A stretch of DNA of 64,000 nucleotides from Bradyrhizobium diazoefficiens (lineage in GTDB: Bacteria; Pseudomonadota; Alphaproteobacteria; Rhizobiales; Xanthobacteraceae), in NCBI RefSeq assembly GCF_016612535.1, contig NZ_JAENXS010000001.1, positions 496,001 through 560,000 on the forward strand. Reading direction: 5' to 3'. The notes beneath the pieces were generated by a model. It was not told the origin of the DNA. It made no database searches and saw nothing but the letters and a program-made list of their open reading frames with translations. Below, piece by piece: positions 985 through 16,551 of the stretch. Position 1 is the first letter of the stretch; each line of letters begins with the position of its first letter. A program made the position numbers and the translations under genes.

Positions 985-1140
985 GGCTTCACTCCCTGAT
1001 TTCGTCGTCTGATTCGGGTAAGTCATAGGACCAAATGAGCAGCGGGCCAATGGCCGGCCCGTTCAGGTCTTCAAGGCGACGCCCTCGTCGGTCCGCCCTA
1101 GCATGGAACTTGCATAAATTCCGGGCGATATGGACGCTGC

Positions 1141-2040
1141 ATGAACCTCATCAGTCTCGACATCCGCATGCTCCGGTCGCTGATCTCGGTGGTCGAGACC
1201 GGCAGCATCACCGAGACCGCACGACGGCTGGGTCGCACCCAACCGGCAATCACATTGCAATTGCAGCGGCTAGAGGAGCTCACAGGCAAGCAATTATTCG
1301 AGCATGCCGGGCGAAGGCTGATGCTGACCGACGACGGCACGACGGTTCTCACCTACGCCAAATCCATCCTGCGGTTGCATGACGAGCTGATCTCGCAACT
1401 GGCGTCGCAGGAGATCGAGGGCCAGGTCGTGCTCGGCACGCCCGACCTCTATGCGGCGTTCATGCTGCCGCAGATTCTGAGCGTGTTCCGAAAATCGTTT
1501 CCGCGCGTGCAAGTCGAGCTCAACTGCGCGCTGTCGACGCCGCTGGTCGGTCTCGTCAAGCGCGGCGACGTCGACATCGCACTCGTCACCCGCATGAATG
1601 ATTTCACCGGCGGCCAGGTGGTACGCCGCGAGCAGCTGGTCTGGATGACCGGCGAGCACTCTGCCGCGCACCAGGAACGCCCGATCCCGCTGGCGCTCTT
1701 GCCGCCCGGTAACATCTATCGCGACTACGCCATCGATACGCTGGAACGCGCGAATTTGCGCTGGCGCATCGCCTGCGTCAGCGAAAGCGTCGGCGGCCTG
1801 CAAGCGGCGGCCTTCGCCGGCATGGCCGTCACCGTGCTCGGCCGCAGTGCGCTGGTGCCGGCGATGCGCGAGATCGGCCCCAATGAAGGCCTGCCGCCGC
1901 TGCCGAAGATCGAGCTGCTGCTCTACAAATCGAGCGGCGCGACCTCGAAGGCGGCAACCGCGCTGCACGACTATCTCGCCCACTATCTGCGCCTCGACGA
2001 AGAGCTCAGCGGCCGCGGCGGTCCGATTGAGCTCTCGTGA
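1141..2040 (+). CDS. LysR-family transcriptional regulator
   Basis: 299 residues, the usual LysR length. The N-terminal winged helix-turn-helix is clear: SLDIRMLRSLISVVETGSIT, then AARRLGRTQPAITLQLQRLE and a wing ending in LTDDG. The rest is a type-2 periplasmic-binding-like effector domain (residues about 90-290). It is transcribed away from the exported FAH-family gene across a 156 bp gap, the classic LysR arrangement, so that gene is the likely target. The effector is unknown. The gap contains a TTGCAT...GATATG-like stretch just before the ATG but no convincing operator. Confidence 0.9.
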   Translation: MNLISLDIRMLRSLISVVETGSITETARRLGRTQPAITLQLQRLEELTGKQLFEHAGRRLMLTDDGTTVLTYAKSILRLHDELISQLASQEIEGQVVLGTPDLYAAFMLPQILSVFRKSFPRVQVELNCALSTPLVGLVKRGDVDIALVTRMNDFTGGQVVRREQLVWMTGEHSAAHQERPIPLALLPPGNIYRDYAIDTLERANLRWRIACVSESVGGLQAAAFAGMAVTVLGRSALVPAMREIGPNEGLPPLPKIELLLYKSSGATSKAATALHDYLAHYLRLDEELSGRGGPIELS

Positions 2041-2116
2041 GCGCGCCCAAGCCCGAATTCAGCGTTTCTCTCGAACATCTTGCGACGACAAGCGCACCGG
2101 ACAGCTGCCTCACGCG

Positions 2117-2569
2117 CTATCGCGGGCCGAGAAGATCCAGCCTTGCAGGGCCAAAAATGGCACGGCCCACGCCGGCGAAACCTGGCCGAGCAGCACCAGC
2201 CCCAGGACAGTCGGCGTGAGCATCAGGCGCCTCGCCGTTCTGCGGCGGGCCGAGTTCGAAGCCACCAAGGCCGACGCAACCGCATCGAGACGCCGCCCCC
2301 GCGCGGCCGGTCGTCATCATTGTCGCGTCGAGCCGGCGCAAGGCTGCGAGAATATCGGCGAGTCGGACGGTGTGGCTCATGCCGGGAATTTCGCGCAAAG
2401 CTGGGCAGGATTCGACCGCGTACATGTCGGAGGCCCAGGACGACAGGATGATCCGCTTCTCCGGTGCAGACAGCTCCTCTGCGTCCAGGACCTCAGCAGG
2501 CGAGCCGTAATGTGCCGCGGGATGAAACAGCGGATTGAGATTGCCGGCATTCGTGTTCGCTTTGGTCAT
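2117..2569 (-). CDS. Small conserved protein at the end of the hsp20 operon; C-terminal part doubtful
   Basis: The ATG at 2569 follows a strong GAGGAGG site. The first about 88 residues (LNPLFHPAAHYGSPAEVLD, then EKRIILSSWASDMYAVESCP, ending DILAALRRLD) match a family I recognise in rhizobia: small proteins with a WASDxxAVE motif and no known function. The open frame then continues for about 60 residues with a Gly/Ala/Arg/Cys-rich composition that looks less protein-like, so the true end may have been lost by a frameshift. It is third in the heat-shock operon, 90 bp after the second hsp20, with a stem-loop in the gap. No function is assigned. Confidence 0.6.
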   Translation of the reverse strand: MTKANTNAGNLNPLFHPAAHYGSPAEVLDAEELSAPEKRIILSSWASDMYAVESCPALREIPGMSHTVRLADILAALRRLDATMMTTGRAGAASRCGCVGLGGFELGPPQNGEAPDAHADCPGAGAARPGFAGVGRAIFGPARLDLLGPR

Positions 2570-2623
2570 CGGTTGTGCCTCCTCTAATGCTCCTTTCGAA
2601 AGGCAAGTGTATGTCTGATAATC

Positions 2624-2650
2624 GGGTGGCGGTGAACATCGCCGCCACCC
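2624..2650 (-). terminator. Intercistronic stem-loop after the second hsp20
   Basis: GGGTGGCGG at 2624-2632 pairs perfectly with CCGCCACCC at 2642-2650 across a 9-base loop. There is no U-run, so it more probably stabilises the upstream message or partially attenuates it than acts as a full terminator. Confidence 0.5.
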
Positions 2651-2659
2651 GGGTTCGTG

Positions 2660-3151
2660 CTATTGCGTGTTGATCGCGATGCGCTTGACGCCTTCGCGCG
2701 GCTTTCCGGACTTGGGCAGTGAGACGGTCAGCACGCCATTCCTGAACGACGCTTCGGCCTTGTCCTCCTCGACGCCGTCGAGCGGGACTTGCCGCTCGAA
2801 GGCGCCGTAGTAGCGCTCGGTGAAATACCTGCCTTCGCCATTGCGCTCGGCTTTTTTCTCACCGCGGAGGGTGAGGACGCCGTTGGCGATTTCAACTTCG
2901 ACGTCCTTCTCCGTCAGGCCCGGAAGTTCGGCCGTGACGGTCAGCAGCTTGTCGGTCTCGCTGAGTTCGACCTTGGGCCAGCCGAAACGACCCTCCATCA
3001 TCGGGGAAAGGTTGGTCCCGGCGAAGCCGCGAAACACGTCATCGAACAGCCGGTTCATCTCGCGATGAAGCGTCAGGAACGGGTCGAAGCTGTCGCGGAC
3101 AGGTGCAAGCTCCTGTTTCCCCGACCAGGGAATGAGATCACGAAATGCCAT
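2660..3151 (-). CDS. Small heat-shock protein, Hsp20 family (second gene)
   Basis: 163 residues. The ATG at 3151 (MAFRDLIPWS) is preferred over one 15 bases upstream because GAAGGAGAAAACA lies directly before it. The protein is an ATP-independent holdase chaperone. It has a short N-terminal arm (PFLTLHREMNRLFDDVFRGF), an alpha-crystallin domain from about residue 55 (VELSETDKLLTVTAELPGL, VEVEIANGVLTLRGEKK), the FERQVPLP-type strand and ANGVLTV-like motif (FRNGVLTVSLPK), and a C-terminal tail ending KRIAINTQ. It follows the first hsp20 by 75 bp and is probably co-transcribed from the ROSE-controlled promoter at 3813-3840. Confidence 0.93.
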   Translation of the reverse strand: MAFRDLIPWSGKQELAPVRDSFDPFLTLHREMNRLFDDVFRGFAGTNLSPMMEGRFGWPKVELSETDKLLTVTAELPGLTEKDVEVEIANGVLTLRGEKKAERNGEGRYFTERYYGAFERQVPLDGVEEDKAEASFRNGVLTVSLPKSGKPREGVKRIAINTQ

Positions 3152-3226
3152 TGTTTTCTCCTTCATGCATCCGGAGCGCGGACGCGGCTTCGCACGCCAC
3201 GTCCCGCCAATTCCTCGATAAAGCGG

Positions 3227-3685
3227 TTAGGCTGCCTTCTGCTCGATCTGAGCGGCAGGGAAATCCCCGCCCCCGATCTGGATCCGACGCGGCTTCATCG
3301 CTTCCGGAACCTCGCGGAACAGGTCGATGATCAAGAGACCGTCCCGGAAGGACGCCTGCTTCACCTGGACATAATCGGCGAGGTTGAAGACCCGCCGGAA
3401 CGGCCGCGCCGCGATGCCGTGATAGAGGTATTCGCGCGCGGCGCCGTCAGGCTTCCTGCCTTCGATCGTGAGCGCGTTCTGCTCGGCCGTCACCGTGATG
3501 TCGTCGACGCCGAACCCCGCCACGGCGAGGCTGATCCGGTAATGGTCCTCGCCGGACCGCTCGATGTTGTAAGGGGGGTAGCTGTCTTCGGTCGTCTGGC
3601 GAAGCGTGCTGTCGACGAGATCGGCCAGGTGATCGAAGCCGATGGTGGAGCGCCACAGCGGCGCAAAGTCGAATGTGGTCCTCAT
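3227..3685 (-). CDS. Small heat-shock protein, Hsp20/IbpA type (first gene)
   Basis: 152 residues. The start at 3685 is preceded by GGAGGA, which lies in the ROSE-like hairpin. N-terminal MRTTFDFAPLWRSTIGFDHL and YPPYNIERSGEDHYRISLAV are typical of IbpA-like class A rhizobial sHsps. The alpha-crystallin domain follows, with LTIEGRK, the FRRVFNLADYV strand and the FRDGLLIIDL motif. The tail KPRRIQIG carries the I-x-I-like oligomerisation motif. It is a holdase that binds unfolding cytoplasmic proteins and is first in the leftward heat-shock operon. Confidence 0.94.
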   Translation of the reverse strand: MRTTFDFAPLWRSTIGFDHLADLVDSTLRQTTEDSYPPYNIERSGEDHYRISLAVAGFGVDDITVTAEQNALTIEGRKPDGAAREYLYHGIAARPFRRVFNLADYVQVKQASFRDGLLIIDLFREVPEAMKPRRIQIGGGDFPAAQIEQKAA

Positions 3686-3790
3686 AACCAAGTCCTCCAA
3701 AGAGCAAGATGGATACGAAGGAGCGCGGGACTGTGTTTATCCGAGAACACCGGCCCAGCGCCCGCACCGGACCCGATCTGGCGTCCGGTA
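3686..3790 (-). promoter_or_regulatory. ROSE-type RNA thermometer in the hsp20 5' leader
   Basis: On the minus strand the leader ends TCTTGCTCTTTGGAGGACT, ten bases before the ATG. The TTGCT at 3703-3707 and the ribosome site GGAGGA at 3693-3698 form the diagnostic last hairpin of ROSE elements, in which UYGCU masks the Shine-Dalgarno sequence and melts on heating. Further upstream ACCGGAC at 3766-3772 pairs with GTCCGGT at 3783-3789, matching the additional stable hairpins of ROSE leaders. ROSE elements control hsp20 operons in Bradyrhizobium and relatives. Temperature control here is inferred from this match. Confidence 0.85.
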
Positions 3791-3812
3791 CACCGCTCTC
3801 GCGGCGAAAAAC

Positions 3813-3840
3813 CACTTAGAAAAGCGGAAAATGATTTCAA
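3813..3840 (-). promoter_or_regulatory. Putative sigma-70-type promoter of the hsp20 operon
   Basis: On the minus strand TTGAAA (3835-3840) and TAAGTG (3813-3818) are separated by 16 bases. This would give a leader of about 120 nt containing the whole ROSE-like structure. A housekeeping-type promoter fits known ROSE operons, where regulation is post-transcriptional. Confidence 0.5.
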
Positions 3841-3907
3841 GAGGGCCAGTCAAAAATTTCCAGGCCCGGATCAGCAAGACAAGGGGGTCCTCCCCCTCGG
3901 AGCTCCT

Positions 3908-5401
3908 TCACGCCTTGGTCCGCGCCCGTCCCTCCTCGCGCAGCACCAGCGACGGCCAGAATTTTGCCCAGGGCTGCGCCTGCTCGAACGCTGCGGCGAT
4001 GCGGAAGATGGTGGGCTCGTCGAGCCAGGGCGCGATGATCTGAAGCCCGATCGGCATGCCATCGCGATCGAAGCCGCAGGGCAGCGTCGCCGCCGGAAGA
4101 CCAGCAAGATTGATCGGCCAAGTGAAAGGCGACCAGCCGAGATGCGGATCGACCTTGCTGCCGTCGACCGTGTCGATGCCGATCCGGCCGGCCTCGAACG
4201 CGGTCACCGCGACCGTCGGCGTTACCAGCACGTCGACGCGTTCGAACAATTTCACGAAGGCGCTGCGCGCCTGGCCGCGGCGATAGCCAGCCTCGACATA
4301 GTCCGTGCCGCTGTAATGACGCCCGGCCGCAACAACAGCGCGATAATCGGCTTCGGAGCTGGCGAGATCGGCTGTGGTCCTGGTCGCGACCGCCGCCGCC
4401 TGCTCGGTGAAGGCGATCGGCTTCAGCGTGTGGTCCAGGATGCCCGGATCGAGCCCGGGACCATCCATGGTGACCTGCGCGCCGCAGGAATCGAGAATCG
4501 CGAGTGCCTTGCCAAATGCTGCGCACACGTCGGGACTGACGGCGGCGTAGCCGAGATCGGCGCTGGCGCCGATGCGAATGCCATCCAGGCGTCCCGCGTT
4601 CGTATCGAAACGGCGGGAGGGCACGGGCAGACTTGCGGCATCGCGCATGTCGTAGCCGGCGATAATTTCCAGTGTCAGCGCGGCATCCGCGACTGTCCGC
4701 GTAATCGGTCCGGTGTGCGCGAGCGACGCCCAGGACGGCGGCGAGAAACCGGGCGAGCGCGGCACGAGGCCGAAGGTCGGCTTCAACCCGAACACGCCGC
4801 AGAAGGATGCCGGCACGCGGACCGAGCCAACGCCATCGGTGCCGATCGCGATCGGGCCGCAGCCGGCCGCGACGCCCGCCGCCGCGCCGCCGCTGGACCC
4901 GCCGCTGGTGCGACCGGGATTCCAGGGGTTTCGCGTGGTCCCCGTGACCGGACTGTCCGCCGTGAGCTTGTAACCGGACTCGCAGGTCGTAGTCTTGCAG
5001 GTGATGATTGCACCCGCAGCCTTCAGCGCCGACACCACGGCGGCATCGGCCTCGGGCACAAAACTCTTGTTCATGGGCGAGCCGCCATAGGCCGGCACGC
5101 CCGCGACGAAAACGAGGTCCTTGATCGTGACCGGCACGCCGGCGAGCGGCCCCTTGGCCTCGCCCGCGCGCATCTGCCTGGTGAGACGATCGGCCTCCGC
5201 CCGCGCCTGCTCGTACATCGGCGTCACCACCGCGTTGCAGGCTTCGTTCGCGGCCTGAAGCGCGGCGATGGTATCGTCGACGACGTCGCGTGGGGTGAAC
5301 GCCTTGCGCCGGTAGCCGGCCATGATCTCGGTTGCAGAAAGCGCGCCAAGGCCAGTCGGCGCCGGCGGGAAGGCCGTTCGGCCGGAACCATCAGTCATCA
5401 T
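3908..5401 (-). CDS. Amidase-signature-family hydrolase
   Basis: 497 residues. It has the amidase-signature catalytic set: Lys94 in GVPVTIKDLV, the Ser pair in TSGGSSGGAAAG (residues 165-175) and nucleophile Ser193 in IGTDGVGSVRVPA, where most relatives read GTDTGGSIR. Members hydrolyse amides to carboxylate and ammonia in the cytoplasm. It is the last gene of the operon that begins with the polyamine-type importer at 13490, 13 bp after the FAD subunit. It probably hydrolyses an amide that is imported or made by the hydroxylase. The exact substrate is not predictable. Confidence 0.92.
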   Translation of the reverse strand: MMTDGSGRTAFPPAPTGLGALSATEIMAGYRRKAFTPRDVVDDTIAALQAANEACNAVVTPMYEQARAEADRLTRQMRAGEAKGPLAGVPVTIKDLVFVAGVPAYGGSPMNKSFVPEADAAVVSALKAAGAIITCKTTTCESGYKLTADSPVTGTTRNPWNPGRTSGGSSGGAAAGVAAGCGPIAIGTDGVGSVRVPASFCGVFGLKPTFGLVPRSPGFSPPSWASLAHTGPITRTVADAALTLEIIAGYDMRDAASLPVPSRRFDTNAGRLDGIRIGASADLGYAAVSPDVCAAFGKALAILDSCGAQVTMDGPGLDPGILDHTLKPIAFTEQAAAVATRTTADLASSEADYRAVVAAGRHYSGTDYVEAGYRRGQARSAFVKLFERVDVLVTPTVAVTAFEAGRIGIDTVDGSKVDPHLGWSPFTWPINLAGLPAATLPCGFDRDGMPIGLQIIAPWLDEPTIFRIAAAFEQAQPWAKFWPSLVLREEGRARTKA

Positions 5402-5414
5402 CGACCCTAAAGAG

Positions 5415-6212
5415 CTAGCTGAGCGCCGCGTCGACGGCGCGCTTGGCCATCACCGTGACGAGATGCGCACGGTAATCGGCCTCGGCGTGGATATCGGAGG
5501 TGAGACCGTCGGTGTCGATCTTGATCGCCGCGATCGCGGACGGATCGAAATTGCCCGACAGCGCCGCTTCCATCGGCGGCACGCGGAATACGCCGGAGCC
5601 TGCGCCAGTCACGGCGACGCGAACACCATCGGCGAATTTCGCGACGAACACGCCGACCAGCGCATAACGCGATGCCGGCGCCTTGAACTTTGCGTAGCCC
5701 GCCCTAAGCGGCACAGGAAAACGGATCGCGGTGATGATCTCGCCGACCTCAAGCGCCGTCTCGAACAGGCCGAGGAAGAACTTGTCGGCCGCGATCTCAC
5801 GCGTGCTGGTGACGATGGTGGCGCCAAGGCCGAGCACGCCGGCCGGATAATCCGCCGCCGGGTCGTTGTTGGCGACCGAGCCGCCGATGGTGCCGCGGTT
5901 GCGCACAGCGGGGTCGCCGATCATCGAGGCCAGCGCCGCGAGCCCGGGGATTTTTGACTGCACCAGTTGCGAGGCCGCCACCACCGCGTGCGGCGTCATC
6001 GCGCCAATGGTGATGGTGGCGCCATCGTCGGTGATGCCCTTGAGATTTGCGAGTTTGGAGAGATCGACCAGTGCAGGCGGATTGGCCAGCCGCTGCTTCA
6101 GCGTCGGGATCAACGTCATGCCGCCGGCAACGAGCTTACTGTCCTCGATCGAGGTCAGGAGTTTCGCCGCGTCGGGAATCTGGTTGGGCTGGTGATAAGT
6201 AAATGGCTTCAT
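5415..6212 (-). CDS. Molybdenum hydroxylase FAD-binding (medium) subunit, CoxM/CutM type
   Basis: 265 residues. The start at 6212 has GGGAGGACAAC before it. N-terminal KPFTYHQP and [19 protein letters not shown] form the FAD PCMH-type fold with the (A)GG pyrophosphate motif. [20 protein letters not shown] is the second flavin-binding motif. The subunit passes electrons from the 2Fe-2S subunit to the acceptor. The order S-L-M (transcribed left) differs from the M-S-L order of true cox operons. It lies 10 bp after the large-subunit stop. Confidence 0.93.
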
Positions 6213-6222
6213 GTTGTCCTCC

Positions 6223-8610
6223 CTATTCCGCGGCGACCGGCAGCGACGCGTTTTGCAGCAGTCGCCAGATCCGGTTCGGGGTCGCCGGCATGTCGACATG
6301 GGTGACACCGAGATGTGCGAGCGCGTCGACCACGGCGTTGATGACGGCGGCAGGCGAGCCGATGGTGCCGACCTCGCCGCAGCCCTTCACGCCCATCGGC
6401 GTGTGCGTGCAGAGCGTCGAGTGGGTCGTAACCTTCATCATCGGCATGTGGTCGGCGCGCGGCATGCAATAGTCCATCAGCGAGCCCGAGAGGAGTTGGC
6501 CGGAGCCCTCGTCATAGACGGCGTTCTCGAACAGCGCCTGGCCGACACCCTGCACGATGCCGCCGTGCAACTGGCCCTCGACGATCATCGGATTGATGAC
6601 CGTGCCGACATCGTCGACCGCGGTGTAATTCACGAGCGTTACCGTGCCGGTCTCCGGATCGACCTCGACCTCGGCGATATGGCAGCCGCCGGGATAGGTG
6701 AAGTTGACGGGGTCGTAATAGGCCTGCTCCTCAAGCCCCGGCTCCAGCACCTCAAGCGGATAATTGTGCGGCACATAGGCAGCGCCCGCGATCTCCTCGA
6801 ACGTCTTGGTACGGTCCGTTCCCGCAACCGAGAATTTGCCACTCTCGAACTGGATGTCGACCTCGGCCGCCTCGAGCAGATGGGAGGCGATCTTCTTGCC
6901 CTTGGCGATCACCTTGTCGGTCGCCTTCGACAGTGCGGCGCCACCAACCACCAGCGATCGGGAGCCATAGGTGCCCATGCCGAACTGCACCCGATCGGTG
7001 TCGCCGAACACGATGTCGACATTCTCGAAGGACACGCCGAGCTTTTCGGAAACGATCTGCGCGAAGGTGGTTTCGTGGCCCTGGCCGTGATTGTGCGTGC
7101 CGATCATGACCGTCACCTGGCCGGTCGGATGCACGCGCACCGTGGCGCTTTCATAGAGGCCGCCGCGTGCGCCCAGCCGTCCTGCGAAACGCGAGGGCGC
7201 AAGGCCGCACGCCTCGACATAGGTGGAATAGCCGAGCCCGCGGAACTTGCCCTTGCTGGCGGAGGCCGCCTTGCGGATGCCAAAACCTTGGACGTCGGCC
7301 GCAACCAGCGCACCGTCGAGACAGCCCATCGGATCGCCGGAATCGTACTGTACAAGTACGGGCGTCTGATAGGGATAGGCCTCCTTCGGGATCATGTTGC
7401 GACGGCGGATCTCGACGCGGTCGATGCCCATCTCGCTGGCTGCGACATCGACGATGCGCTCCAGCACGAAGGTGGCCTCTGGGCGGCCCGCGCCGCGGTA
7501 GGCATCGACCGGCACGGTGTTAGTGAAGACCACCTTCACATTGCAGTAGATCGCGGGCGTGGTGTAGACGCCGCCAAGCAAGGGGCCGTAAAGATTGGTC
7601 GGAATGTTCGGCCCGAAGGTCGAGAGATAGCCGCCCATATTGGCGAGCGTATTGACGCGGAAGGCGAGAAACTTTCCGGTCTCGTCGAGCGCCAGCTCAG
7701 CCTCGGTGACGTGATCCCGGCCGTGACGGTCGGACACGTAGCCCTCCGAGCGGCTCGCGACCCATTTGATCGTCCGCATCACGCGCTTGGCGGCCCAGGT
7801 AATCACGGCCTCCTCGCCGTAATGGAACTGCTTGACGCCGAAGCCACCGCCGACATCCGGCGCGACCACCCGCAGCTTGTGTTGTGGAATGTTCAGCACC
7901 AGCGCGCCCATCAGGAAGCGCACGACATGCGGGAACTGGCTGGTGGTCCACAGCGTGAAGCGATCGGTGCCGGGCTCGTATGCCGCGATCGCCGCACGCG
8001 GCTCCATCGGATTGCCGATCAGGCGGTTGTTGACGAGGCTGAGCTTTGCGACATGCGCGGCTTTGCGGAACGCGGTTTCGACCGCGGCGTTGTCGCCCAG
8101 CTCCCAGTCGCAGCAAATGTTGTTCGGGACGTCGTCGAACAATTGCGGCGCGCCGGGCCTGACCGCTTCGAGCACGCCGACCACCGACGGCAGCACCTCG
8201 TAGTCGATCGTCAGGAGTTCGGCCGCAGCATTCGCCTGCTCCGGCGTCTCGGCGATGACGAAGGCCACCATGTCGCCGACGAAGCGCACCTTGCCCTGCG
8301 CCAGCATCGGGAACGGCGGCTCCTTCATCGGCACGCCCTTGGCGTCCGAGATGCCCCAACCGCAGGGCAGCGAGCCGAGACCATCGGCCTTGACATCCTC
8401 CCCGGTCAGGACCGCGATGACGCCCGGCGAGCCCAGCGCCGCACTCGTGTCGATGCCGCGCAGGACCGCATGCCCGTGCGGCGAGCGCACGAACACGCCC
8501 GCCGCCATGCCGTGACGCTTGATGTCGGAGACGTAATTGCCGCGCCCGGTGAGGAAGCGCTGGTCTTCCTTGCGCTTCGGTGCGGCGCCGATACCGATCA
8601 CATTGCCCAT
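6223..8610 (-). CDS. Molybdenum hydroxylase large (MoCo) subunit, CoxL form II
   Basis: 795 residues. The start at 8610 has GGGAG upstream and lies 2 bp past the small-subunit stop. It shows the xanthine-dehydrogenase family layout: N-terminal domain ([13 protein letters not shown]), Mo-cofactor regions ([20 protein letters not shown]) and, near residue 368, [12 protein letters not shown]. The last is the form II signature; genuine CO dehydrogenases have AYRCSFR with the Cu-binding cysteine, which is absent here. [13 protein letters not shown] near residue 745 holds the catalytic glutamate. It probably hydroxylates a heterocycle, aldehyde or purine-like compound. The product should not be called CO dehydrogenase. 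Confidence 0.94.
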
Positions 8611-8612
8611 GG

Positions 8613-9104
8613 TCACTCTCCCTCGGCGGCGTGCATGGCGGCAGCGCCTGCCATCACCGAGACGACGATGTTCTGGTAGCCGGTGCAGCGGCAGATATTG
8701 CCTTCGAGGCCTTGACGGACATCGGCCTCGGTCAGGTCCGGCTTCTCGGCGGCGAGTGCGATCGCGGTCATCAGCATGCCGGGCGTGCAGAAGCCGCATT
8801 GCAGGCCGTGATGTTCGCGAAAGGCTTCCTGCATCGGATGCATCTGGTTCGAGCCGGGCGCGCCTTGCAGGCCTTCGATGGTGAGAAGCGTCGCGCCGTC
8901 GAGGGCGGGGGCGAGCAACGTGCAGCTCTTCACGGGCAGCCCGTCGAGATGCACGACGCAGGCGCCGCACTGGCTGGTGTCACAACCGATATGGGTCCCT
9001 GTCAGATTGAGCTGCTCGCGCAAGAGCTCGGCGACGAGTGTCGCCGGTTCGACGTCCACATTGGTTGGCCGGCCGTTGAGTGTGAAGGATATCTGCACGG
9101 TCAT
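8613..9104 (-). CDS. Molybdenum hydroxylase 2Fe-2S (small) subunit, CoxS type
   Basis: 163 residues. It has two 2Fe-2S clusters. The plant-ferredoxin-type cluster is seen as CDTSQCGACVVHLDG with a fourth Cys in KSCTLLA. The C-terminal helical cluster is CGFCTPGML and CRCTGYQNI. It carries electrons from the Mo centre to the FAD subunit. Unlike many relatives it has no signal peptide, so the enzyme is cytoplasmic. CAGGAG lies close before the ATG at 9104, which is 21 bp after the ABC ATPase stop codon. The catalytic genes are therefore physically part of the transporter operon. Confidence 0.94.
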   Translation of the reverse strand: MTVQISFTLNGRPTNVDVEPATLVAELLREQLNLTGTHIGCDTSQCGACVVHLDGLPVKSCTLLAPALDGATLLTIEGLQGAPGSNQMHPMQEAFREHHGLQCGFCTPGMLMTAIALAAEKPDLTEADVRQGLEGNICRCTGYQNIVVSVMAGAAAMHAAEGE

Positions 9105-9125
9105 ACTCCTGTGCGCGACGGGGTT

Positions 9126-10232
9126 TTAGGCGAGTGGCAACGCGCTGCCGGTGGCCCATGTGGCCATCACGACATCGCCGACGGTAAAGGGATCTGCGAA
9201 GAAGGTCTTTTCCGGCACGTAGGCCACGAATTCATCGTCCGGCACGGTGTCGAGCATCACCTTGACGAAATAGCCCTGGTACTCGATCGCGACCACGCGG
9301 CTCGGCAACGCCGTGGCGCAGCCGGGTGGCAGGTCCCTGCCCGGCCTGACCAGCGCGACATCGTCGCGGCGAACGGCGATATCGACCTTGTCGCCGACGC
9401 TGACAGCCGGGCGCGCCTGAAGCGGCACCTCGATGCCATCAGGAGCGGCCTGCGCGAGTGTGAAGCTGGCACCGTTGACCTTCTCGACACGGCCAGACAG
9501 CACGTTCTGCCCGCCCATGAACTCCGCGACATAGCGGTCGTGCGGGTGGGCATAGACGTCCCGCGCCGCGCCCGCCTGCTTGATCTTGCCCTGCTCCATC
9601 ACGACCACTAAATCCGCAAGTGCGATCGCTTCGAGCTGGGTGTGGGTGACGTGGATGAAGGTGATGCCGAGCTCCCGCTGCATCCGCCGCAGCTCCTGAC
9701 GCATCTGCACGCGGAGCTGTTCGTCGAGCGCGGACAGCGGTTCATCGAGCAGCAGCACCCGCGGCTCGGTGATCGCGGCCCGCGCCAGCGCCACGCGCTG
9801 CTGCTGGCCGCCGGAGAGCTGTGCCGGCAACCGGTCGGCGAACTGCGTCAGCCGCACCTTCTCGATCATGGCGTCGGCCGCCCGAAGCCGATCGGACTTC
9901 GACTGGCCACGAACGCGCAAGGCAAAGGCGATGTTGTCGCGCACGGTCAGATGCGGGAACAGCGCGTAGGACTGGAACATCATCGCGGTGCGGCGCTGCA
10001 CCGGCGCGAGACCGACGACGTTCTGACCGCCGATCACGATCTCCCCCGCGGTCGGGTCCTCATGACCGGCGATCATGCGCAGAATCGTGGTCTTGCCGCA
10101 GCCGGACGGGCCGATGAAGCAGCAATAGGCGCCATCGGCAATCCTGAGGTTGACGCCGTCGACCACGTAGGTCGCGCCGTCAAAGCTCTTGCAGACGCCT
10201 GCCAGTTCGATATCGCCGCGATCGCTCTTCAT
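9126..10232 (-). CDS. ABC transporter ATPase, spermidine/putrescine (PotA) type
   Basis: 368 residues from ATG 10232; a TTG six bases upstream is the alternative. Walker A is GPSGCGKTT, the signature LSGGQQQRVALARA, Walker B VLLLDEPLSALD and the switch HVTHTQLEA. The C-terminal TOBE/OB region runs from about residue 240 to the end. The family powers import of polyamines, Fe3+, thiamine or opine-like compounds. It is the fourth gene of the operon headed by the binding protein at 13490. The hydroxylase subunits follow directly, suggesting that the imported compound is their substrate. Confidence 0.93.
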   Translation of the reverse strand: MKSDRGDIELAGVCKSFDGATYVVDGVNLRIADGAYCCFIGPSGCGKTTILRMIAGHEDPTAGEIVIGGQNVVGLAPVQRRTAMMFQSYALFPHLTVRDNIAFALRVRGQSKSDRLRAADAMIEKVRLTQFADRLPAQLSGGQQQRVALARAAITEPRVLLLDEPLSALDEQLRVQMRQELRRMQRELGITFIHVTHTQLEAIALADLVVVMEQGKIKQAGAARDVYAHPHDRYVAEFMGGQNVLSGRVEKVNGASFTLAQAAPDGIEVPLQARPAVSVGDKVDIAVRRDDVALVRPGRDLPPGCATALPSRVVAIEYQGYFVKVMLDTVPDDEFVAYVPEKTFFADPFTVGDVVMATWATGSALPLA

Positions 10233-10250
10233 TCCCAACTCAACCCTTGC

Positions 10251-11141
10251 TCAACCTTTGGCCTGACTGCCGCGCTTCTTCTGGATCAGGACGATGCTGC
10301 CGAGGCTTGCGCCGATGACGACGAAGGAGACGATGGTGGTCACGGTGCCGAGCGCATAGAGCGAGGGCGAGGTGACGTTCAGCGTCATGCTCCAGATCTC
10401 CAGCGGCAGCGTGTTCAGCGAACCTGCGGTCTGGAGGCTGCGCGCGAACTCGTCATAGGACAGCGTGAAGCCGAACAACGCCACCGCGACGAGACCCGGC
10501 GCGAGCACCGGAATCATCACCAGCCGGATCGACTGCCAGCGGCTGGCGCCGAGATCGTAGGCCGCCTCCTCCCAGACGTGATTGAAGCGCGACATCACAG
10601 CGAACATCACCAGCACACCGAACGGCAGCGTCCATGACAGCTGTGAGCCGAGCGCCGATGTGTACCAGCTCGCATTCAGCCCGAGCGCCTGGAACAGAAG
10701 CCCCGTGCCGAGGCCGAGCACGAGGCCGGGCGCGACCAGGCTGCCGATCATCATGTAGAAGACGACGGTGTCGCCGCGGAAGCGCTTGCGGAAACCGAGC
10801 CCGGCCAGGAAGGAGACCACCACCGTGATGACGGTGACGATGACCGCGAGCTTGATCGAGCGATCAAATGAGCCCTTGACGTCGCCGGTCCGCACCTGGG
10901 TGAAGAGATCGACGAACCAGTGCAGCGAATGCCCCTTCATCGGAAACACGAGGCCGCCGCGGATATCCTGGAACGACAGGATGTAGATGCAGAACATCGG
11001 GCCGTAGAGCGCGATCACATAAAGCCCGAACAGCGTCGCCAGCACGTAGAACGTCCAGGGCCGGCCGCCCTTTCTCGGCGCGATCGCCTTGGTCGCCGCG
11101 GGCGCGACCGCTTCAGGCACGTCAGCGAGAACCGCGCTCAT
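10251..11141 (-). CDS. ABC transporter permease, PotC type
   Basis: 296 residues. Six membrane spans are visible, the first from WTFYVLATLFGLYVIALYGP and the last ending the protein (TTIVSFVVIGASLGSIVLIQ). The ATPase-coupling loop shows the EAA pattern EAAYDLGASRWQSIRLVMIP. It pairs with the PotB-type permease, whose stop overlaps its ATG by four bases (ATGA), so translation is probably coupled. The inner-membrane channel imports the same ligand as the adjoining binding protein. Confidence 0.92.
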   Translation of the reverse strand: MSAVLADVPEAVAPAATKAIAPRKGGRPWTFYVLATLFGLYVIALYGPMFCIYILSFQDIRGGLVFPMKGHSLHWFVDLFTQVRTGDVKGSFDRSIKLAVIVTVITVVVSFLAGLGFRKRFRGDTVVFYMMIGSLVAPGLVLGLGTGLLFQALGLNASWYTSALGSQLSWTLPFGVLVMFAVMSRFNHVWEEAAYDLGASRWQSIRLVMIPVLAPGLVAVALFGFTLSYDEFARSLQTAGSLNTLPLEIWSMTLNVTSPSLYALGTVTTIVSFVVIGASLGSIVLIQKKRGSQAKG

Positions 11142-12028
11142 CGCGTGATCTCCTGCCTGATGTCGACGGTGCGCAGGATCAGCGAGACGATCCCTACCAG
11201 CACCAGCGTCAACAGCACAGCGCTTGCGGCCGCGGTCGGGTATTGCAGCACGCCGACGTCCTCGTAGAACGCGCTGACCACCGAGGCCGAGCCGCCGCCG
11301 GACATCACCTTGACGACGAAGAAGTCGCCCATCACGATCGAGACCACGAAGATGGTGCCGAGCGCAATACCGCTCTTGGACATCGGCACCACGATCAGGC
11401 GCAGGATGTCGAAACGGCTGGCGCCGGCATCGATCGCGGCCTCGATCAGCTTTTTGTCGATCCGCGCCATGGAATTGAAGATCGGCACGATCATGAAGAT
11501 CGTGAGCTGGTGGACATAGGCGATGACCACCGCCAAATCAGAGAACAGCAGCACCTCCAGCGGCTGATGGATCACGCCCAGTGCCAGCAGCGCCTGGTTG
11601 ATTAGGCCTTCCTTGCCGAGCAACGGAATCCACGAAATCATGCGGATGATGTTCGAGGTCCAGAACGGCACCGTGCACAGCAGAAACAGGCCGATCGCCA
11701 GCAGCTGGTTACGGACGTGGAAGACGAGAAAATAAGCGACAAAGAAGCCGATGATCAGCGTGAAGACCCAAGTCAGCACTGTGAACTTGATGGTCGCCAG
11801 ATAGAGCTTCAGCGTCAGCGCCGAATGCAGCACGTCGACATAGCTTGCAAGCGTGAACTCAGGCGTCAGCCCGCCAAAGCCGTCGGTCGAAAAGAAGCTC
11901 GCCGCCAGCACGACGAGGATCGGGGCCACGAAGAACGGAACGAGCACCAGAACCAGCGGCGAGACATAGAGCCAGCCGGCGAGATTTGCGCGTGGTGGCG
12001 TTTGAGCTGGTTTTGGACTGGGCTGCAT
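11138..12028 (-). CDS. ABC transporter permease, PotB type
   Basis: 296 residues with about six membrane spans, starting LYVSPLVLVLVPFFVAPILV and ending in a span before RTVDIRQEI. The EAA coupling loop is IEAAIDAGASRFDILRLIVVP. It overlaps the next permease by ATGA and follows the binding-protein gene after an 82 bp gap with a perfect 10 bp stem-loop. That is a common way to keep binding-protein mRNA more abundant than permease mRNA. Confidence 0.92.
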   Translation of the reverse strand: MQPSPKPAQTPPRANLAGWLYVSPLVLVLVPFFVAPILVVLAASFFSTDGFGGLTPEFTLASYVDVLHSALTLKLYLATIKFTVLTWVFTLIIGFFVAYFLVFHVRNQLLAIGLFLLCTVPFWTSNIIRMISWIPLLGKEGLINQALLALGVIHQPLEVLLFSDLAVVIAYVHQLTIFMIVPIFNSMARIDKKLIEAAIDAGASRFDILRLIVVPMSKSGIALGTIFVVSIVMGDFFVVKVMSGGGSASVVSAFYEDVGVLQYPTAAASAVLLTLVLVGIVSLILRTVDIRQEITR

Positions 12029-12058
12029 ATCAGCGAATGCCTCGAAGTCGATCTTGTC

Positions 12059-12084
12059 GCACCGGCGCGTGACGGCGCCGGTGC
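12059..12084 (-). promoter_or_regulatory. Intercistronic stem-loop between binding-protein and permease genes
   Basis: GCACCGGCGC at 12059-12068 and GCGCCGGTGC at 12075-12084 form a perfect 10 bp stem with a 6-base loop just after the binding-protein stop. There is no U-run. It probably protects the upstream transcript from 3' exonucleases or partially attenuates the downstream genes. Confidence 0.6.
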
Positions 12085-12110
12085 TTCGTTTAGGTCAGGG
12101 AAAGCAGGTT

Positions 12111-13490
12111 TCAGGCCACCTTGAAGTCGTTCCAGCGTTTGTTCATGTAGGCGGCCTCGTCCATCAGCGTGTTCCAGCACGAGATGTTCTTGACGCGGTC
12201 GAGGAACGAGCCGCCGTCACGCTTGGTGCCGGCCTTCTCCATCGCCACGCCATAGGGATCGTTGATCACTTCCGGCGCCGGCTTGCCGTCGTACCAGAAG
12301 TCCCATTCGGCAGCGGTCAGGAACTTCTTCGCCGTCGAGGGCACCGGACTGTAATAGCCGTAGCGGCCGACGAAGGCGCCCTGCCAGCCCGAGAGATACC
12401 AGTTGAGATATTCGTAGGCGGAATCGAGCTTCTTGCCCGAGAGATGCTTCATCAGGCCCATGCCGTTGCACCAGCCGCGATAGCCTTCCTTGCCGTCCTT
12501 GATGTTGACCGGTGCGTACACGCAAGGGATTTCCTTGACGCGGACGGCGGCGACCGCCGGCGACCACATCGACTGGATCACGACTTCGCCCGCCGCCATC
12601 AGCTGCACCGACTGGTCGAAAGTGGTCCAGGTCGCGCGGAATTGGCCCTGCTTCTTCAGCTCGATCAGCTTGTTGCAGGTGAAGTCGATCTCCTCCTTGG
12701 TCATGTTGCCCTTGTTGCCGTACTTGATCAGTCCGGCACTTTCGAAGCAGAGCGCGGCGTCCATGATGCCGATCGCGGGCACGTCGAGGATCGCGGCCTT
12801 GCCCTTGAACTTGGGATCGATCAGATCCTTCCACTCGGTCACTTCGTGGCCGACGAGGTCGGGACGGTAGCCGATGGAGTCGGCGTTGTAGACCTGCGGC
12901 AGGAAGGTCGCCCATTCGGTGACGCCGTCATGCAGGTCGGTCGAGTCGGGCTTGGAGATGTACATGGCCTCGTAGGGCGAGATGCCCTGGCGCGGGATCT
13001 TGTGGCCGTCGATCTCGCCCTTGGTGAAGATCGGCAGGATGTTGTCGAATTCCTTGATCTTCTTGACCTCGATGCCCTGGATGACCTTGCGCTTGGCGGC
13101 GAGCTTGGCCTGCCAGCCCTCGAGATCGGCGATATCGACCGTATCAGGCTGGCTTATGAAGCGATTGATGGCAGCCGACGTGTCGAGGTTCTGCATCGTC
13201 ACCTTGAAGCCGAGATCCTTGGCGGCTTGGTCGCCGATCGCCTTCACCACGGAATAGGAGACGCCGACATGGCGTAGCTCGATGTCCTTGATCTCCTGCG
13301 CCCAGATGGTCGGGAATCCGCGGATCGCATCCGACCCGACGGCCGCGCCCGCAATTGCGGCGGCGCCCTTCAACAGCGTGCGCCGGCTCAGCTTTTTCGT
13401 CGATCTGACGTTCGCCTTGGCCTCCATTCCCGCCGGATCGGAAGTGAACGTCCCCTTAGTCCCATCAGACACGTTAGTCCCATCAGACAT
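12111..13490 (-). CDS. ABC transporter periplasmic binding protein, PotD/extracellular family 1 type, Tat signal
   Basis: 459 residues from ATG 13490, which has GAGGG five bases upstream. The N-terminal 27 residues are polar, followed by a twin-arginine signal (LSRRTLLKGAAAIAGAAVG) and cleavage near WAQE. The mature protein looks like a type-2 binding protein (IELRHVGVSYSVVKAIGD, VADLEGWQAKLAAK-like strands, YISKPDST, GYYSPVPSTAKKFL). It is first in the operon that also encodes permeases, ATPase, Mo hydroxylase and amidase. An exact 15 bp direct repeat at the extreme 5' end duplicates six residues. The ligand is unknown; N-containing compounds are likely from the context. Confidence 0.9.
   Translation of the reverse strand: MSDGTNVSDGTKGTFTSDPAGMEAKANVRSTKKLSRRTLLKGAAAIAGAAVGSDAIRGFPTIWAQEIKDIELRHVGVSYSVVKAIGDQAAKDLGFKVTMQNLDTSAAINRFISQPDTVDIADLEGWQAKLAAKRKVIQGIEVKKIKEFDNILPIFTKGEIDGHKIPRQGISPYEAMYISKPDSTDLHDGVTEWATFLPQVYNADSIGYRPDLVGHEVTEWKDLIDPKFKGKAAILDVPAIGIMDAALCFESAGLIKYGNKGNMTKEEIDFTCNKLIELKKQGQFRATWTTFDQSVQLMAAGEVVIQSMWSPAVAAVRVKEIPCVYAPVNIKDGKEGYRGWCNGMGLMKHLSGKKLDSAYEYLNWYLSGWQGAFVGRYGYYSPVPSTAKKFLTAAEWDFWYDGKPAPEVINDPYGVAMEKAGTKRDGGSFLDRVKNISCWNTLMDEAAYMNKRWNDFKVA
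13456..13488 (-). repeat. Short in-frame duplication at the binding-protein N terminus
   Basis: TTAGTCCCATCAGAC occurs at 13456-13470 and 13474-13488, an 18 bp period. It encodes two copies of an SDGT(N/K) unit directly after the start codon. This looks like a recent in-frame slippage duplication in a region outside the folded domain. Confidence 0.85.
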
Positions 13491-13812
13491 GGCAACCCTC
13501 ATTGGTTACGATGAACGCCCCGCACCGATCGCCATTGACCGGCCGCGATGTGATCAAGTTGCGCGCGAGGCTAGGGTTGAGATTTTGCGAAGTAAAATTG
13601 GAAGTAAAAATTCGTCGTATAAACGCGGCTAATGGATCGGGCCGATGCATTTGCTTTCGGCAGTGCGCATAAGAAGGCGTCAACACGTGTATGCAAGGCA
13701 AGGCACGAGACTGCGTCGGCCCGCTCGCACGGCAGGCGCGATCACGATTGCGATACTGGTTGCCACAACGTTGGGCGCGACGGGCAACGAGAAAGTTGCC
13801 GCGCGACGGTTT
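13491..13812. other. Intergenic region holding the probable promoter of the transporter-hydroxylase operon
   Basis: 322 bp without a convincing gene, between the binding-protein start and the end of the MHS transporter gene. The part near 13577-13625 is clearly richer in A+T than its surroundings. It contains a direct repeat, GAAGTAAAATTG (13589-13600) followed at once by GAAGTAAAAATT (13601-13612). Tandem 12 bp repeats in a promoter region are candidate regulator sites. No adjacent regulator gene exists, so any regulator would act from elsewhere. Confidence 0.5.
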
Positions 13813-15114
13813 TCAGGATTTGAGCGTCTCACGCGCCGTCTCCGGCGTCATTAGCGTCGCGATGATGGTGATGATCGACAGCGCGATGATGTAGAGCGAC
13901 ACCGGCCAGTAAGATCCGGCCGAGGCGAGCAGCGCGGTCGCGATCAGCGGCGAGAAGCCGCCGCTCAGCGCGGCTGCGACATTGGCGCCGAGCGAGGCAC
14001 CGCTGTAGCGCACCTGAGTGCGGAACAGCTCCGGCATGAACGCGGCTTTGGGTCCGAACAGCAGCGCATGCGTCAGCGTCATCGTGACCACGAGGGCGAG
14101 CGTGATCAGCGCCGGCTCCTTGGTATCGAGGAACCAGAACAGCGGAAACGCCAGCGCCACCGAGAACACGCCGCCGGCGAGATAGAGCGCCTTGCGGCCA
14201 AAGATGTCCGACAGCCAGCCCGCGAGCGGCAACGTCGCGAACTCGACGATCGCGGCATAGACCACCGCATTGAGGATCACGCGACGCGGCAGGCCGAGCT
14301 TCGTCGTGGCATAGAGCACGATGAAGACCGTGAGGAGATAGGCCAGTCCGACTTCCGACACCGTGATGCCGATCGCGAGTAGGAAGCTGCGCCAGTCGCG
14401 GCGGATCACTTCCCAGACCGGCTGCGCCAGAACTTCCTTGCGCTCGACCACTTCCTTGAAATGCGGCGTCTCTGCAAGTCTCAGCCGCACGATGAAGCCG
14501 ACCCCGACCAGCAAGATGCTGATCAGAAACGGCACGCGCCAGCCCCAGCTCAGGAACTCCGCTTCGGGCAGCTGCGTCATCAGCCCGAAGATGCCGGTGG
14601 AGGCGGCAACGCCGACCGGAAAACCGATCTGCACCAGGCTGCCATAGAAGCCGCGGCGGTTGCCGGCGTGCTCGGCCACCATGACCACCGCGCCGCTCCA
14701 TTCGCCACCGAGACCGATGCCCTGGACGAAGCGCAGGATGACGAGGAAAATCGGCGCCCAGACGCCGATCTGGCTGTATGTCGGCAGGCATCCGATCAGG
14801 AAGGTGCCGAGCCCCATCGCGATCATGGTCGCGACCAGCATTGTCTTGCGCCCGAGCCGATCGCCATAATGCCCGATGATGGCGCCGCCGATCGGCCGCG
14901 CGACGAAGCCGACCGCATAGGTCGAGAAGGCCGCGAGCGTGCCGACGAAGGGATCGAAGCTCGGGAAGAACAGCTTGTTGAGCACCAGAGCTGCGGCCGT
15001 GCCGTAGATCAGGAAGTCGTACCACTCGATCGCGGTGCCGAGCGCGCTCGCCCACACCACATGCGCCGTCGTCGATCGCTCCGTCGCGTCGGAGACCCCC
15101 ATTGCTGCCGTCAT
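13813..15114 (-). CDS. MFS transporter, metabolite:H+ symporter (MHS) family
   Basis: 433 residues from ATG 15114 (TGGGG upstream); an ATG at 15147 is the alternative. It has twelve membrane spans. Family marks are ALGTAIEWYDFLIYGTAAA in span 1, the loop GHYGDRLGRKTMLVATM after span 2, RFVQGIGLGGEWSGAVVMVAEH in span 4 and GWLSDIFGRKALYLAGG in the second half. The best-known members carry alpha-ketoglutarate, proline/betaine, citrate or shikimate. It is divergent from the orphan binding protein at 15330. The substrate is not predictable. Confidence 0.9.
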   Translation of the reverse strand: MTAAMGVSDATERSTTAHVVWASALGTAIEWYDFLIYGTAAALVLNKLFFPSFDPFVGTLAAFSTYAVGFVARPIGGAIIGHYGDRLGRKTMLVATMIAMGLGTFLIGCLPTYSQIGVWAPIFLVILRFVQGIGLGGEWSGAVVMVAEHAGNRRGFYGSLVQIGFPVGVAASTGIFGLMTQLPEAEFLSWGWRVPFLISILLVGVGFIVRLRLAETPHFKEVVERKEVLAQPVWEVIRRDWRSFLLAIGITVSEVGLAYLLTVFIVLYATTKLGLPRRVILNAVVYAAIVEFATLPLAGWLSDIFGRKALYLAGGVFSVALAFPLFWFLDTKEPALITLALVVTMTLTHALLFGPKAAFMPELFRTQVRYSGASLGANVAAALSGGFSPLIATALLASAGSYWPVSLYIIALSIITIIATLMTPETARETLKS

Positions 15115-15247
15115 TGCATGCGCCCCAAAAGATTCCGCGTGCATCATGGCCAATCGCCATGTCGACTGCAACCTGCGGAGGTATTCATTGTGCGCAGGAT
15201 CGCGATGCGAGATTTTCGCGCGATTTTCTCAGCCTCGTTATTCTCCA

Positions 15248-15329: not shown

Positions 15330-16544
15330 ATGAGAGGGTTTTTGGCCTGCGCCATGCTCGCAACCATGACGTCTGCCGCCATCATCACAGCTGCGCGCGC
15401 GCAAGTGTCCGACGACGTGGTGCGGATCGGCGTGCTGACGGATCTGTCGAGCTGGGGTCGCGACAACAGCGGGCCGGGTTCTGTCGAGGCTGCCAAGATG
15501 GCGGTGGAAGAGTTTGGACCGACCGTGCTCGGCAAGCCGATCGAGATCATCAGCGCCGATCACCAGATGAAAACCGACGTCGGCGTCAACATCGTGCGCG
15601 GCTGGTTCGACAACGGCAAGGTCGACGCCGTCGCCGACATCCCCAATTCCGGCATCGCCATCGCCGTCCACAACATGGTGCGCGAGCGCAACAAGATCGC
15701 GCTGCTCTCCGGCCCCGGCGCGAGCTCGCTGACCGACGAGCTGTGCAGCCCGAACACCGTGCACTTCACCTACGACACCTATGCGCTGTCCAAGGTGACG
15801 GCCTCCGCCGTGATCAAGGAGGGCGGCAAATCCTGGTACTTCATCACCGCGGACTACGCCTTCGGCCAGCAGCTCGAGAAGGACGCAACCCGCTTCATCA
15901 ACGAGATGGGCGGCAAGGTGCTCGGCGGCGTCAAGCATCCGACCAATACGGCGGACTTCTCGTCCTTCGCGCTGCAGGCGCAAAGCTCGAAGGCTGACGT
16001 GGTCGCCTTCGCCAATGCCGGCCAGGACACCGACAACGCCATCAAGCAGTCCGGCGAGTTCGGACTGGTGCAGGGCGGCCAGAAGCTGGTCGGCCTCTTG
16101 ATGTTCGACACCGACGTGCATGCGATTGGGCTGAAGTCCGCGCAGGGCACCTATATGACCACGGCTTCGTACTGGAACATGGACGAGCAGACCCGCGCCT
16201 GGTCCAAAAAATTCTACGAGCGCACCAAGGTGATGCCGACCATGATCCAGACCGGCGTCTACGGCTCGGTGCTGCATTATCTCAAGGCGATCAAGGCGGC
16301 CGGCACCGACGACCCCGCCAAGGTGATGGCCAAGATGCGCGAGCTGCCGATCGAGGATACGTTTGTGCATGGCGGCAAGTTGCGCGAGGACGGCCGCGTC
16401 GTCCGCGACATGTATCTGGCTAGGGTGAAGTCGCCCGAGCAGTCCAAGGAGCCCTGGGATTATCTGGAGATCATCAAGACCGTGAAGGGCGAGGACGCCT
16501 ATCGCCCGCTCTCCGAATCCAAATGTCCGCTGCTGAAGAAGTGA
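15330..16544 (+). CDS. Orphan branched-chain amino-acid-type ABC binding protein (LivK family)
   Basis: 404 residues. An N-terminal signal peptide (FLACAMLATMTSAAIITAARA, cut before QVSDD) precedes a type-1 periplasmic binding fold: VRIGVLTDLSSWGRDNSGPG, then AAKMAVEEFGPTVLGKPIEI and AVHNMVRERNKIALLSGPGA. Such proteins deliver amino acids, amides or aromatic acids to a Liv-type ABC importer. No permease or ATPase genes adjoin, so it must dock on a distant transporter or act as a sensor. Only 7 bp separate it from the flavin dehydrogenase, so both genes probably serve the same substrate. Confidence 0.92.
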   Translation: MRGFLACAMLATMTSAAIITAARAQVSDDVVRIGVLTDLSSWGRDNSGPGSVEAAKMAVEEFGPTVLGKPIEIISADHQMKTDVGVNIVRGWFDNGKVDAVADIPNSGIAIAVHNMVRERNKIALLSGPGASSLTDELCSPNTVHFTYDTYALSKVTASAVIKEGGKSWYFITADYAFGQQLEKDATRFINEMGGKVLGGVKHPTNTADFSSFALQAQSSKADVVAFANAGQDTDNAIKQSGEFGLVQGGQKLVGLLMFDTDVHAIGLKSAQGTYMTTASYWNMDEQTRAWSKKFYERTKVMPTMIQTGVYGSVLHYLKAIKAAGTDDPAKVMAKMRELPIEDTFVHGGKLREDGRVVRDMYLARVKSPEQSKEPWDYLEIIKTVKGEDAYRPLSESKCPLLKK

Positions 16545-16551
16545 GGTTGAC

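Follow-up and report, generated by a model that had tools for sequence, protein, structure and literature searches.

The window analysed here, a 64,000-nucleotide stretch of the 8.0 Mb genome of Bradyrhizobium diazoefficiens (G000:C1:496001-560000), contains a block of eight open reading frames (ORFs) on the minus strand (3908-13502), which encode the four proteins of an ATP-binding cassette (ABC) importer, the three subunits of a molybdenum (Mo) hydroxylase and an amidase. Comparison with relatives supports the view that this block is one dedicated, co-inherited unit. We give an even chance to the reading that a cyclic amide or ureide-like compound is imported by it, hydroxylated by the Mo enzyme and then hydrolysed. 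All eight proteins have a Pfam domain match, and the intergenic distances computed from the coordinates are, in transcription order, 82, -4, 12, 21, 2, 10 and 13 bases. A first-pass annotation of the sequence had described eight co-directional genes with overlaps or gaps of at most 82 bp, which the ORF coordinates and Pfam matches confirm; judged from this layout, the genes are probably co-transcribed as a catabolic operon. The start it had given for the binding-protein gene, 13490, is also likelier than 13502, since the second in-frame ATG of that ORF lies there with GAGGG ahead of it.

The eight-gene order was looked for in relatives. A scan with the large subunit of the hydroxylase confirmed 98 of them, and the best 80 of the 98 were taken as named loci; the counts of gene order and of the LysR gene discussed below rest on tblastn, because the ORF picker errs in GC-rich DNA. 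Order and strand of all eight genes were kept in 70 of the 80 named loci, as expected for the linked, dedicated unit that had been claimed. Three loci are incomplete where contig ends cut them (L009, L018 and L073), and L049 has an insertion inside the Mo gene with all eight genes still visible. The amidase alone is missing from the set in L045, L063, L064, L065 and L088, and both importer and amidase are missing in L086, the Mo subunit of which is 58% identical. The closest named large-subunit matches were Bradyrhizobium records, at most 97% identical, and full sets were present in records titled Bradyrhizobium, Rhodopseudomonas, Chelatococcus, Lichenifustis, Enhydrobacter, Jiella, Hoeflea, Prosthecomicrobium and Phaeobacter, among others. 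Within the genus the spread is patchy, with a close Mo subunit (71-100% identical) in 20 of 60 genomes, the present one counted. Separation of transporter and enzyme genes in close relatives was also looked for and not seen: the importer ATPase gene lies beside the Mo subunit gene in 19 of these 20 genomes, and the twentieth (G046, L102) is explained by an insertion that interrupts its Mo gene, so that the short stretch stops before the ATPase; the longer record of that place, L049, has the importer upstream. The operon, which occurs in many bacteria of soil and sea, is thus well conserved, patchily distributed and probably mobile. It is also present in Bradyrhizobium sp. BTAi1 (L043). The insertion, of about 0.8 kb near the start of the Mo gene, belongs to Bradyrhizobium sp. 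AT1 (L049 10001-13177; also L102), in which the operon may consequently be inactive. It was also seen that a record titled Frankia sp. RB7 (L014, JAUEPE010000007.1) carries an operon 97% identical to that of Bradyrhizobium, with the same flanking genes; possibly the record is mistitled or its assembly is a mixture.

Co-inheritance was evaluated on a tree of 49 large subunits chosen by the analyst, 29 of them importer-linked. All 29 fell in one clade with support of 100/100, and linkage required one change on the tree against a mean of 15.9 after shuffling (0 of 500 shuffles as low), under labels set as follows: "importer-linked" by hand for L108 and for the short locus of the window itself (L004); "no importer" from about 1 kb of upstream sequence for L110-L118 and from almost nothing for L109; and "no importer" for the paralogues of the same genome, which has just two binding-protein genes, neither of them near those paralogues. 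Four paralogue rows are long branches. Across 20 loci, distances in the Mo subunit correlated with those in the amidase (r 0.93), the ATPase (0.89), the FAD subunit (0.80) and the binding protein (0.74). The binding protein had the lowest mean distance of the five (0.14; Mo subunit 0.20, ATPase 0.26, amidase 0.33, FAD subunit 0.36), and this low divergence suggests that its ligand is fixed. The Phaeobacter row, from the Roseobacteraceae, clusters with Hoeflea (100/98), a grouping which suggests that the operon has moved by horizontal transfer.

The most replaceable part of the unit is the hydrolase. The amidase of the window has K94 (IKD at 93), GGSSGG at 167 and Ser193 (GSVR within the motif at 188), and we take K94, the serine of GGSSGG and Ser193 to be the Lys-Ser-Ser triad of the amidase signature family. 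In L064, L065 and L088 an unrelated alpha/beta hydrolase gene occupies the amidase position, downstream of the FAD subunit gene. A whole-genome search of the five amidase-less genomes found no amidase closer than 40%, and none at 1e-60 in the genome of L088; in two control genomes that do carry the amidase, L059 and L082, the same search had matches of 66% and 59%. The L064 hydrolase has 64-65% matches in the genomes of L065 and L088, matches of 39% and 44% in those of L045 and L063, and a best match of 45% among eight amidase-bearing genomes, three of which had no match at 1e-30. Considering that L064, L065 and L088 form one nested subclade (100/99), one replacement event is indicated and not three. 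Such a replacement of one hydrolase by another supports a real hydrolytic step.

According to Pfam, the 2Fe-2S, Mo and FAD parts of the hydroxylase are separate subunits that carry the corresponding family domains, which is the three-subunit layout of the xanthine oxidase family. In this family the Glu of the GxGE segment is catalytic, and GCGEVGT of the large subunit is matched in the alignment by GMGESAM in 1t3q and GVGESPH in 1n5w. The motif AYRGAGR begins at residue 370 and was found in 80 of 80 loci; in the alignment, solved CO dehydrogenases have their CSFR loop at this position. In form I CO dehydrogenase it is the Cys of the AYxCSFR loop that binds copper. The score with the NCBIfam model for CO dehydrogenase, TIGR02416, was 636 bits, well under the 991 that this model requires. 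Taking into account the motif in place of the CSFR loop and this score, CO dehydrogenase was rejected, as the first-pass annotation had done on the motif. The same genome also encodes a separate large subunit that has the form I motif AYRCSFR (G000:C1:1059142-1059882, L005), and CO oxidation therefore has its own gene there. Among the relatives, CoxE-type genes adjoin the operon in L067 (2252-4852), L077 (2261-4542) and L082 (2259-3455); L067 and L077 also have a CoxD-like AAA ATPase gene there, and L067 has a CoxG-cluster gene as well. These calls come from Pfam on members of L067 and L082 and from clustering only for L077, and the genes are possible cofactor-maturation partners. In L058 (Lichenifustis, 930-4773) a second form II set (2Fe-2S subunit, Mo subunit 57%, FAD subunit 62%) lies directly upstream of the full operon.

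The model of the binding protein, built on an 80-row alignment, reached a pLDDT of 87.3 and replaced an earlier one from 15 rows (39.6); its fold matches YdcS, PotF, PotD and GABA receptors. R40 and R41, of the twin-arginine signal, are invariant in 15 relatives. In PotD, E171 and D257 are the acidic residues that hold the polyamine. By alignment with PotD, which is weak (E ~1e-4), the equivalent positions 251 and 346 are acidic in 0 of 80 rows, with one gap at 251, and the equivalents of D168, W229 and W255 are conserved. Since neither position, as placed by the weak alignment with PotD, is acidic in any of the 80 rows, polyamine import was judged unlikely. The importer, earlier described as polyamine-type, is so in fold only. 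A polyamine or GABA-like amine importer that stands by chance beside an unrelated Mo enzyme and amidase would agree with the fold matches and with the three conserved PotD positions; the positions that are never acidic, the linkage in 70 of 80 loci and the single Mo clade speak against such an accident, which we regard as barely plausible.

A different ligand is suggested by the kin of the importer outside the clade. Among 22 such loci, 20 have within about 5 kb at least one gene for a hydantoin-type racemase, dihydropyrimidinase, hydantoinase, DUF1688 protein or amidase. A PF01177 racemase lies within about 2 kb in 14, and the remaining types are dihydropyrimidinase (2), HyuA/HyuB (2), DUF1688 (2) and amidase (3). 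With the Mo subunit of the window as query, no Mo hydroxylase was seen in the 22 stretches. These neighbourhoods make the heterocyclic amide or lactam substrate that had been proposed likelier. The only other match to this binding-protein subfamily in the genome is 50% identical (G000:C3:450270-451526, L128), and its gene is accompanied by genes for a GntR regulator and an Asp/Glu/hydantoin racemase.

In the proposed pathway, the Tat-exported protein of PotD/PotF fold would first capture its ligand, a small nitrogen-containing molecule that is probably a cyclic amide or ureide by type and probably not a polyamine. The Pot-type ABC importer would carry it into the cell, where the form II-like three-subunit hydroxylase would oxidise a carbon of the substrate with oxygen from water, the electrons leaving via 2Fe-2S and FAD. 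The hydrolase, usually of the amidase signature family, would then cut the amide bond made or exposed, and the product would enter general metabolism; the operon would be controlled by its own LysR regulator. We infer the substrate class, the order of the steps, the LysR control and the product from gene content and neighbourhoods. Hydroxylation next to the nitrogen, as first proposed, is likewise something that we only infer, and some form II relatives outside the clade adjoin alcohol-oxidation genes. More broadly, a form II "CO dehydrogenase" lineage could represent the oxidising step of a horizontally moving, self-contained cyclic amide or ureide pathway, apart from the hydantoinase and dihydropyrimidinase routes, an extension that we offer tentatively and hold to be somewhat doubtful.

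Several observations weigh against the cyclic amide pathway. The importer kin are only 46-57% identical and may bind other ligands, and there is no racemase, hydantoinase or dihydropyrimidinase among the eight genes of the operon. The replacing hydrolase is nearer to a lipase (9n8r, 212 bits) than to kynurenine formamidase (4e11, 60 bits), so the bond cleaved may be an ester, and L045 and L063 have neither type of hydrolase in the slot. The solved relatives of the large subunit are headed by CO dehydrogenases (609, 536 and 497 bits), above the ring hydroxylases quinoline 2-oxidoreductase (480 bits) and 6-hydroxypseudooxynicotine dehydrogenase (427 bits), although the presence of these two among the solved relatives itself speaks for the pathway. 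Glyceraldehyde dehydrogenase models scored the three subunits at 615, 205 and 200 bits, though below their cut-offs. Form II relatives outside the clade adjoin genes for PQQ-dependent alcohol oxidation or PQQ synthesis, which would suit aldehydes: the enzyme of L121 (a Ruegeria plasmid) has the gene for a PQQ alcohol dehydrogenase and pedF nearby, and that of L122 (a Pseudosulfitobacter plasmid) has pedF and pqqB-E, the two enzymes being 55-58% identical. These neighbourhoods hint that form II enzymes outside the clade oxidise aldehydes. The main rival explanation follows from the last two points, namely that the Mo enzyme acts as an aldehyde oxidoreductase. The importer would then bring in an amide- or amine-bearing compound, the aldehyde group of which, or one derived from it, would be oxidised to the acid, and the amidase would take off an acyl group or ammonia. 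Considering that the operon has no alcohol or amine dehydrogenase gene, that the glyceraldehyde models stay under their cut-offs and that L121 and L122 fall outside the importer-linked clade, we regard it as unlikely.

Two other substrates were weighed against the cyclic amide or ureide. An N-methylated pyridine carboxylate (homarine or trigonelline), the ring of which would be hydroxylated and then opened, would agree with the occurrence of the operon in marine groups (Hoeflea, Ahrensia, Oricola and Phaeobacter records) and in legume symbionts; the importer kin adjoin cyclic-ureide genes, and this substrate appears quite improbable. The accessible part of PMC13390433 cites a 2026 publication on a homarine pathway in environmental bacteria; no gene-level description of the route was found in the literature, including the accessible parts of PMC12817926 and PMC13390433. 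The second is an oxidative pyrimidine route, in which the Mo enzyme would make barbiturate from uracil or thymine and the amidase would be ureidomalonase-like. Importer kin occur near dihydropyrimidinase and DUF1688 genes, and the genome has an AtzD/barbiturase-family gene. Ureidomalonase is itself an amidase-signature enzyme. No AtzD-family gene lies inside the operon, however, and such genes were present in 15 of the 20 genomes of the genus that carry the operon and in 21 of the 40 that do not, so they do not track it. The barbiturate route was rejected on this comparison, and the pyrimidine reading is highly improbable. Separately, another large subunit of this genome with AYRGAGR (L007, 42% identical; G000:C1:892568-893311) lies about 12 kb from an AtzD/barbiturase-family gene (C1:905104-906219), in what is possibly an oxidative pyrimidine locus.

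The coordinates of the operon and its surrounding features are listed in Table 1. The LysR-type regulator gene belongs with the operon: a match of at least 60% identity was present in 76 of the 80 fetched stretches, not always directly adjacent, and in none of L021, L076, L080 and L086. LysR sites follow a T-N11-A pattern, and ATTTT-N7-AAAAT upstream of the binding-protein gene is a weak candidate for one. Of 76 sequences, 23 had the ATTTT/AAAAT arm pair anywhere in the upstream region and 56 had an overlapping 12-mer, mostly close Bradyrhizobium relatives; the 12-mer was in none of the non-Bradyrhizobium upstream regions set apart. A sigma-70 scan gave no site. Terminator-like stems numbered 9 in the region against 6.4 expected, so that the stem at the amidase end is not significant alone. 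Between the amidase and LysR genes there are two Hsp20-like genes, named by eye (2660-3700), which were rejected as members since only 8 of the 80 loci had matches to both; the pair looks like an insertion or a chance neighbour. On the other side, the MFS gene (13813-15171) was rejected because matches of at least 35% identity occurred only in Bradyrhizobium-titled loci and L014. Beyond it, a divergent cluster (15330-18285) starts with a urea-type binding-protein gene (below the NCBIfam cut-off) and a flavoprotein gene (assigned by eye), and is conserved only near the Bradyrhizobium copies and in L014.

Table 1. Features of the operon and its surroundings (window coordinates)
Feature	Position	Strand	Basis
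Solute-binding protein, twin-arginine signal, PotD/PotF/YdcS fold	12111-13502	-	Pfam SBP_bac_8; model; fold matches
ABC permease 1, PotB/PotH-like	11138-12028	-	Pfam BPD_transp_1; NCBIfam PotB best, 130 bits against cut-off of 348
ABC permease 2, PotC/PotI-like	10251-11141	-	Pfam BPD_transp_1; NCBIfam PotC best, 107 bits against cut-off of 326
ABC ATPase, PotA-like with TOBE_2	9126-10238	-	Pfam ABC_tran, TOBE_2; NCBIfam PotA best, 328 bits against cut-off of 482
2Fe-2S subunit, molybdenum hydroxylase	8613-9104	-	Pfam Fer2, Fer2_2
Mo-binding large subunit, form II-like, AYRGAGR	6223-8610	-	Pfam Ald_Xan_dh_C, MoCoBD_1, MoCoBD_2; motif
FAD subunit, molybdenum hydroxylase	5415-6212	-	Pfam FAD_binding_5; start placed by eye and tblastn
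Amidase-signature hydrolase	3908-5401	-	Pfam Amidase, 360 bits; motif positions
LysR-type regulator gene	1141-2040	+	Matches in relatives; family assigned by eye from sequence
Candidate LysR site ATTTT-N7-AAAAT, upstream of binding-protein gene	13582-13598	-	Read in sequence
GC-rich hairpin, 10 pairs, in the 82 bases that separate the binding-protein and permease 1 genes	12059-12084	-	
Weak terminator-like stem with T-run, 3' of amidase	3812-3827	-	

Form II enzymes are tentatively annotated as CO dehydrogenases, and CO has been doubted as their physiological substrate (accessible part of PMC6794299). With the operon, one form II clade has an importer, a hydrolase and a regulator gene of its own, and the ligand of the binding protein could point to a form II substrate. 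The importer group is large, 7461 of 8000 scored candidates matching at 1e-10, and many of its listed members are named spermidine/putrescine transport proteins by one source. If the proposed pathway is true, form II enzymes would gain a defined organic substrate, and a large importer group annotated as polyamine transporters would be reassigned.

We found no published description of the eight-gene set in a literature search that did not reach most subscription articles or the homarine publication of 2026. The nicotine cluster of Agrobacterium tumefaciens S33 combines nicotine-induced putrescine/spermidine-type ABC genes with a Mo hydroxylase, an N-formylmaleamate deformylase and an amidase, as described in the accessible part of PMC5500553. 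It differs in its many extra steps (dioxygenase, isomerase, amine oxidases) and in a Mo enzyme of two subunits without FAD, which that part of the source only says to resemble NicAB, NdhLS and IorAB. Genes for a ring-cleaving dioxygenase, a deformylase or maleamate steps are absent from the eight of the operon. Quinoline 2-oxidoreductase (1t3q) and 6-hydroxypseudooxynicotine dehydrogenase (7dqx) are three-subunit Mo hydroxylases like that of the operon, and of these two the GxGE alignment was seen for 1t3q only. The Pot-type importers beside hydantoin and dihydropyrimidine genes share the importer proteins with the operon (46-61% identity), but the racemase, dihydropyrimidinase and hydantoinase are theirs and not the operon's; in Aminobacter DSM24755 a dihydropyrimidinase gene adjoins ABC transporter genes (accessible part of PMC3546935). 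The form II "CO dehydrogenase" enzymes have the motif AYRGAGR and the three-subunit layout in common with the operon, the nearest outside the clade being 54-64% identical, whereas the relatives L119-L122 are linked to CoxD/E/G, XdhC, TRAP or PQQ genes instead of a Pot-type importer or an amidase.

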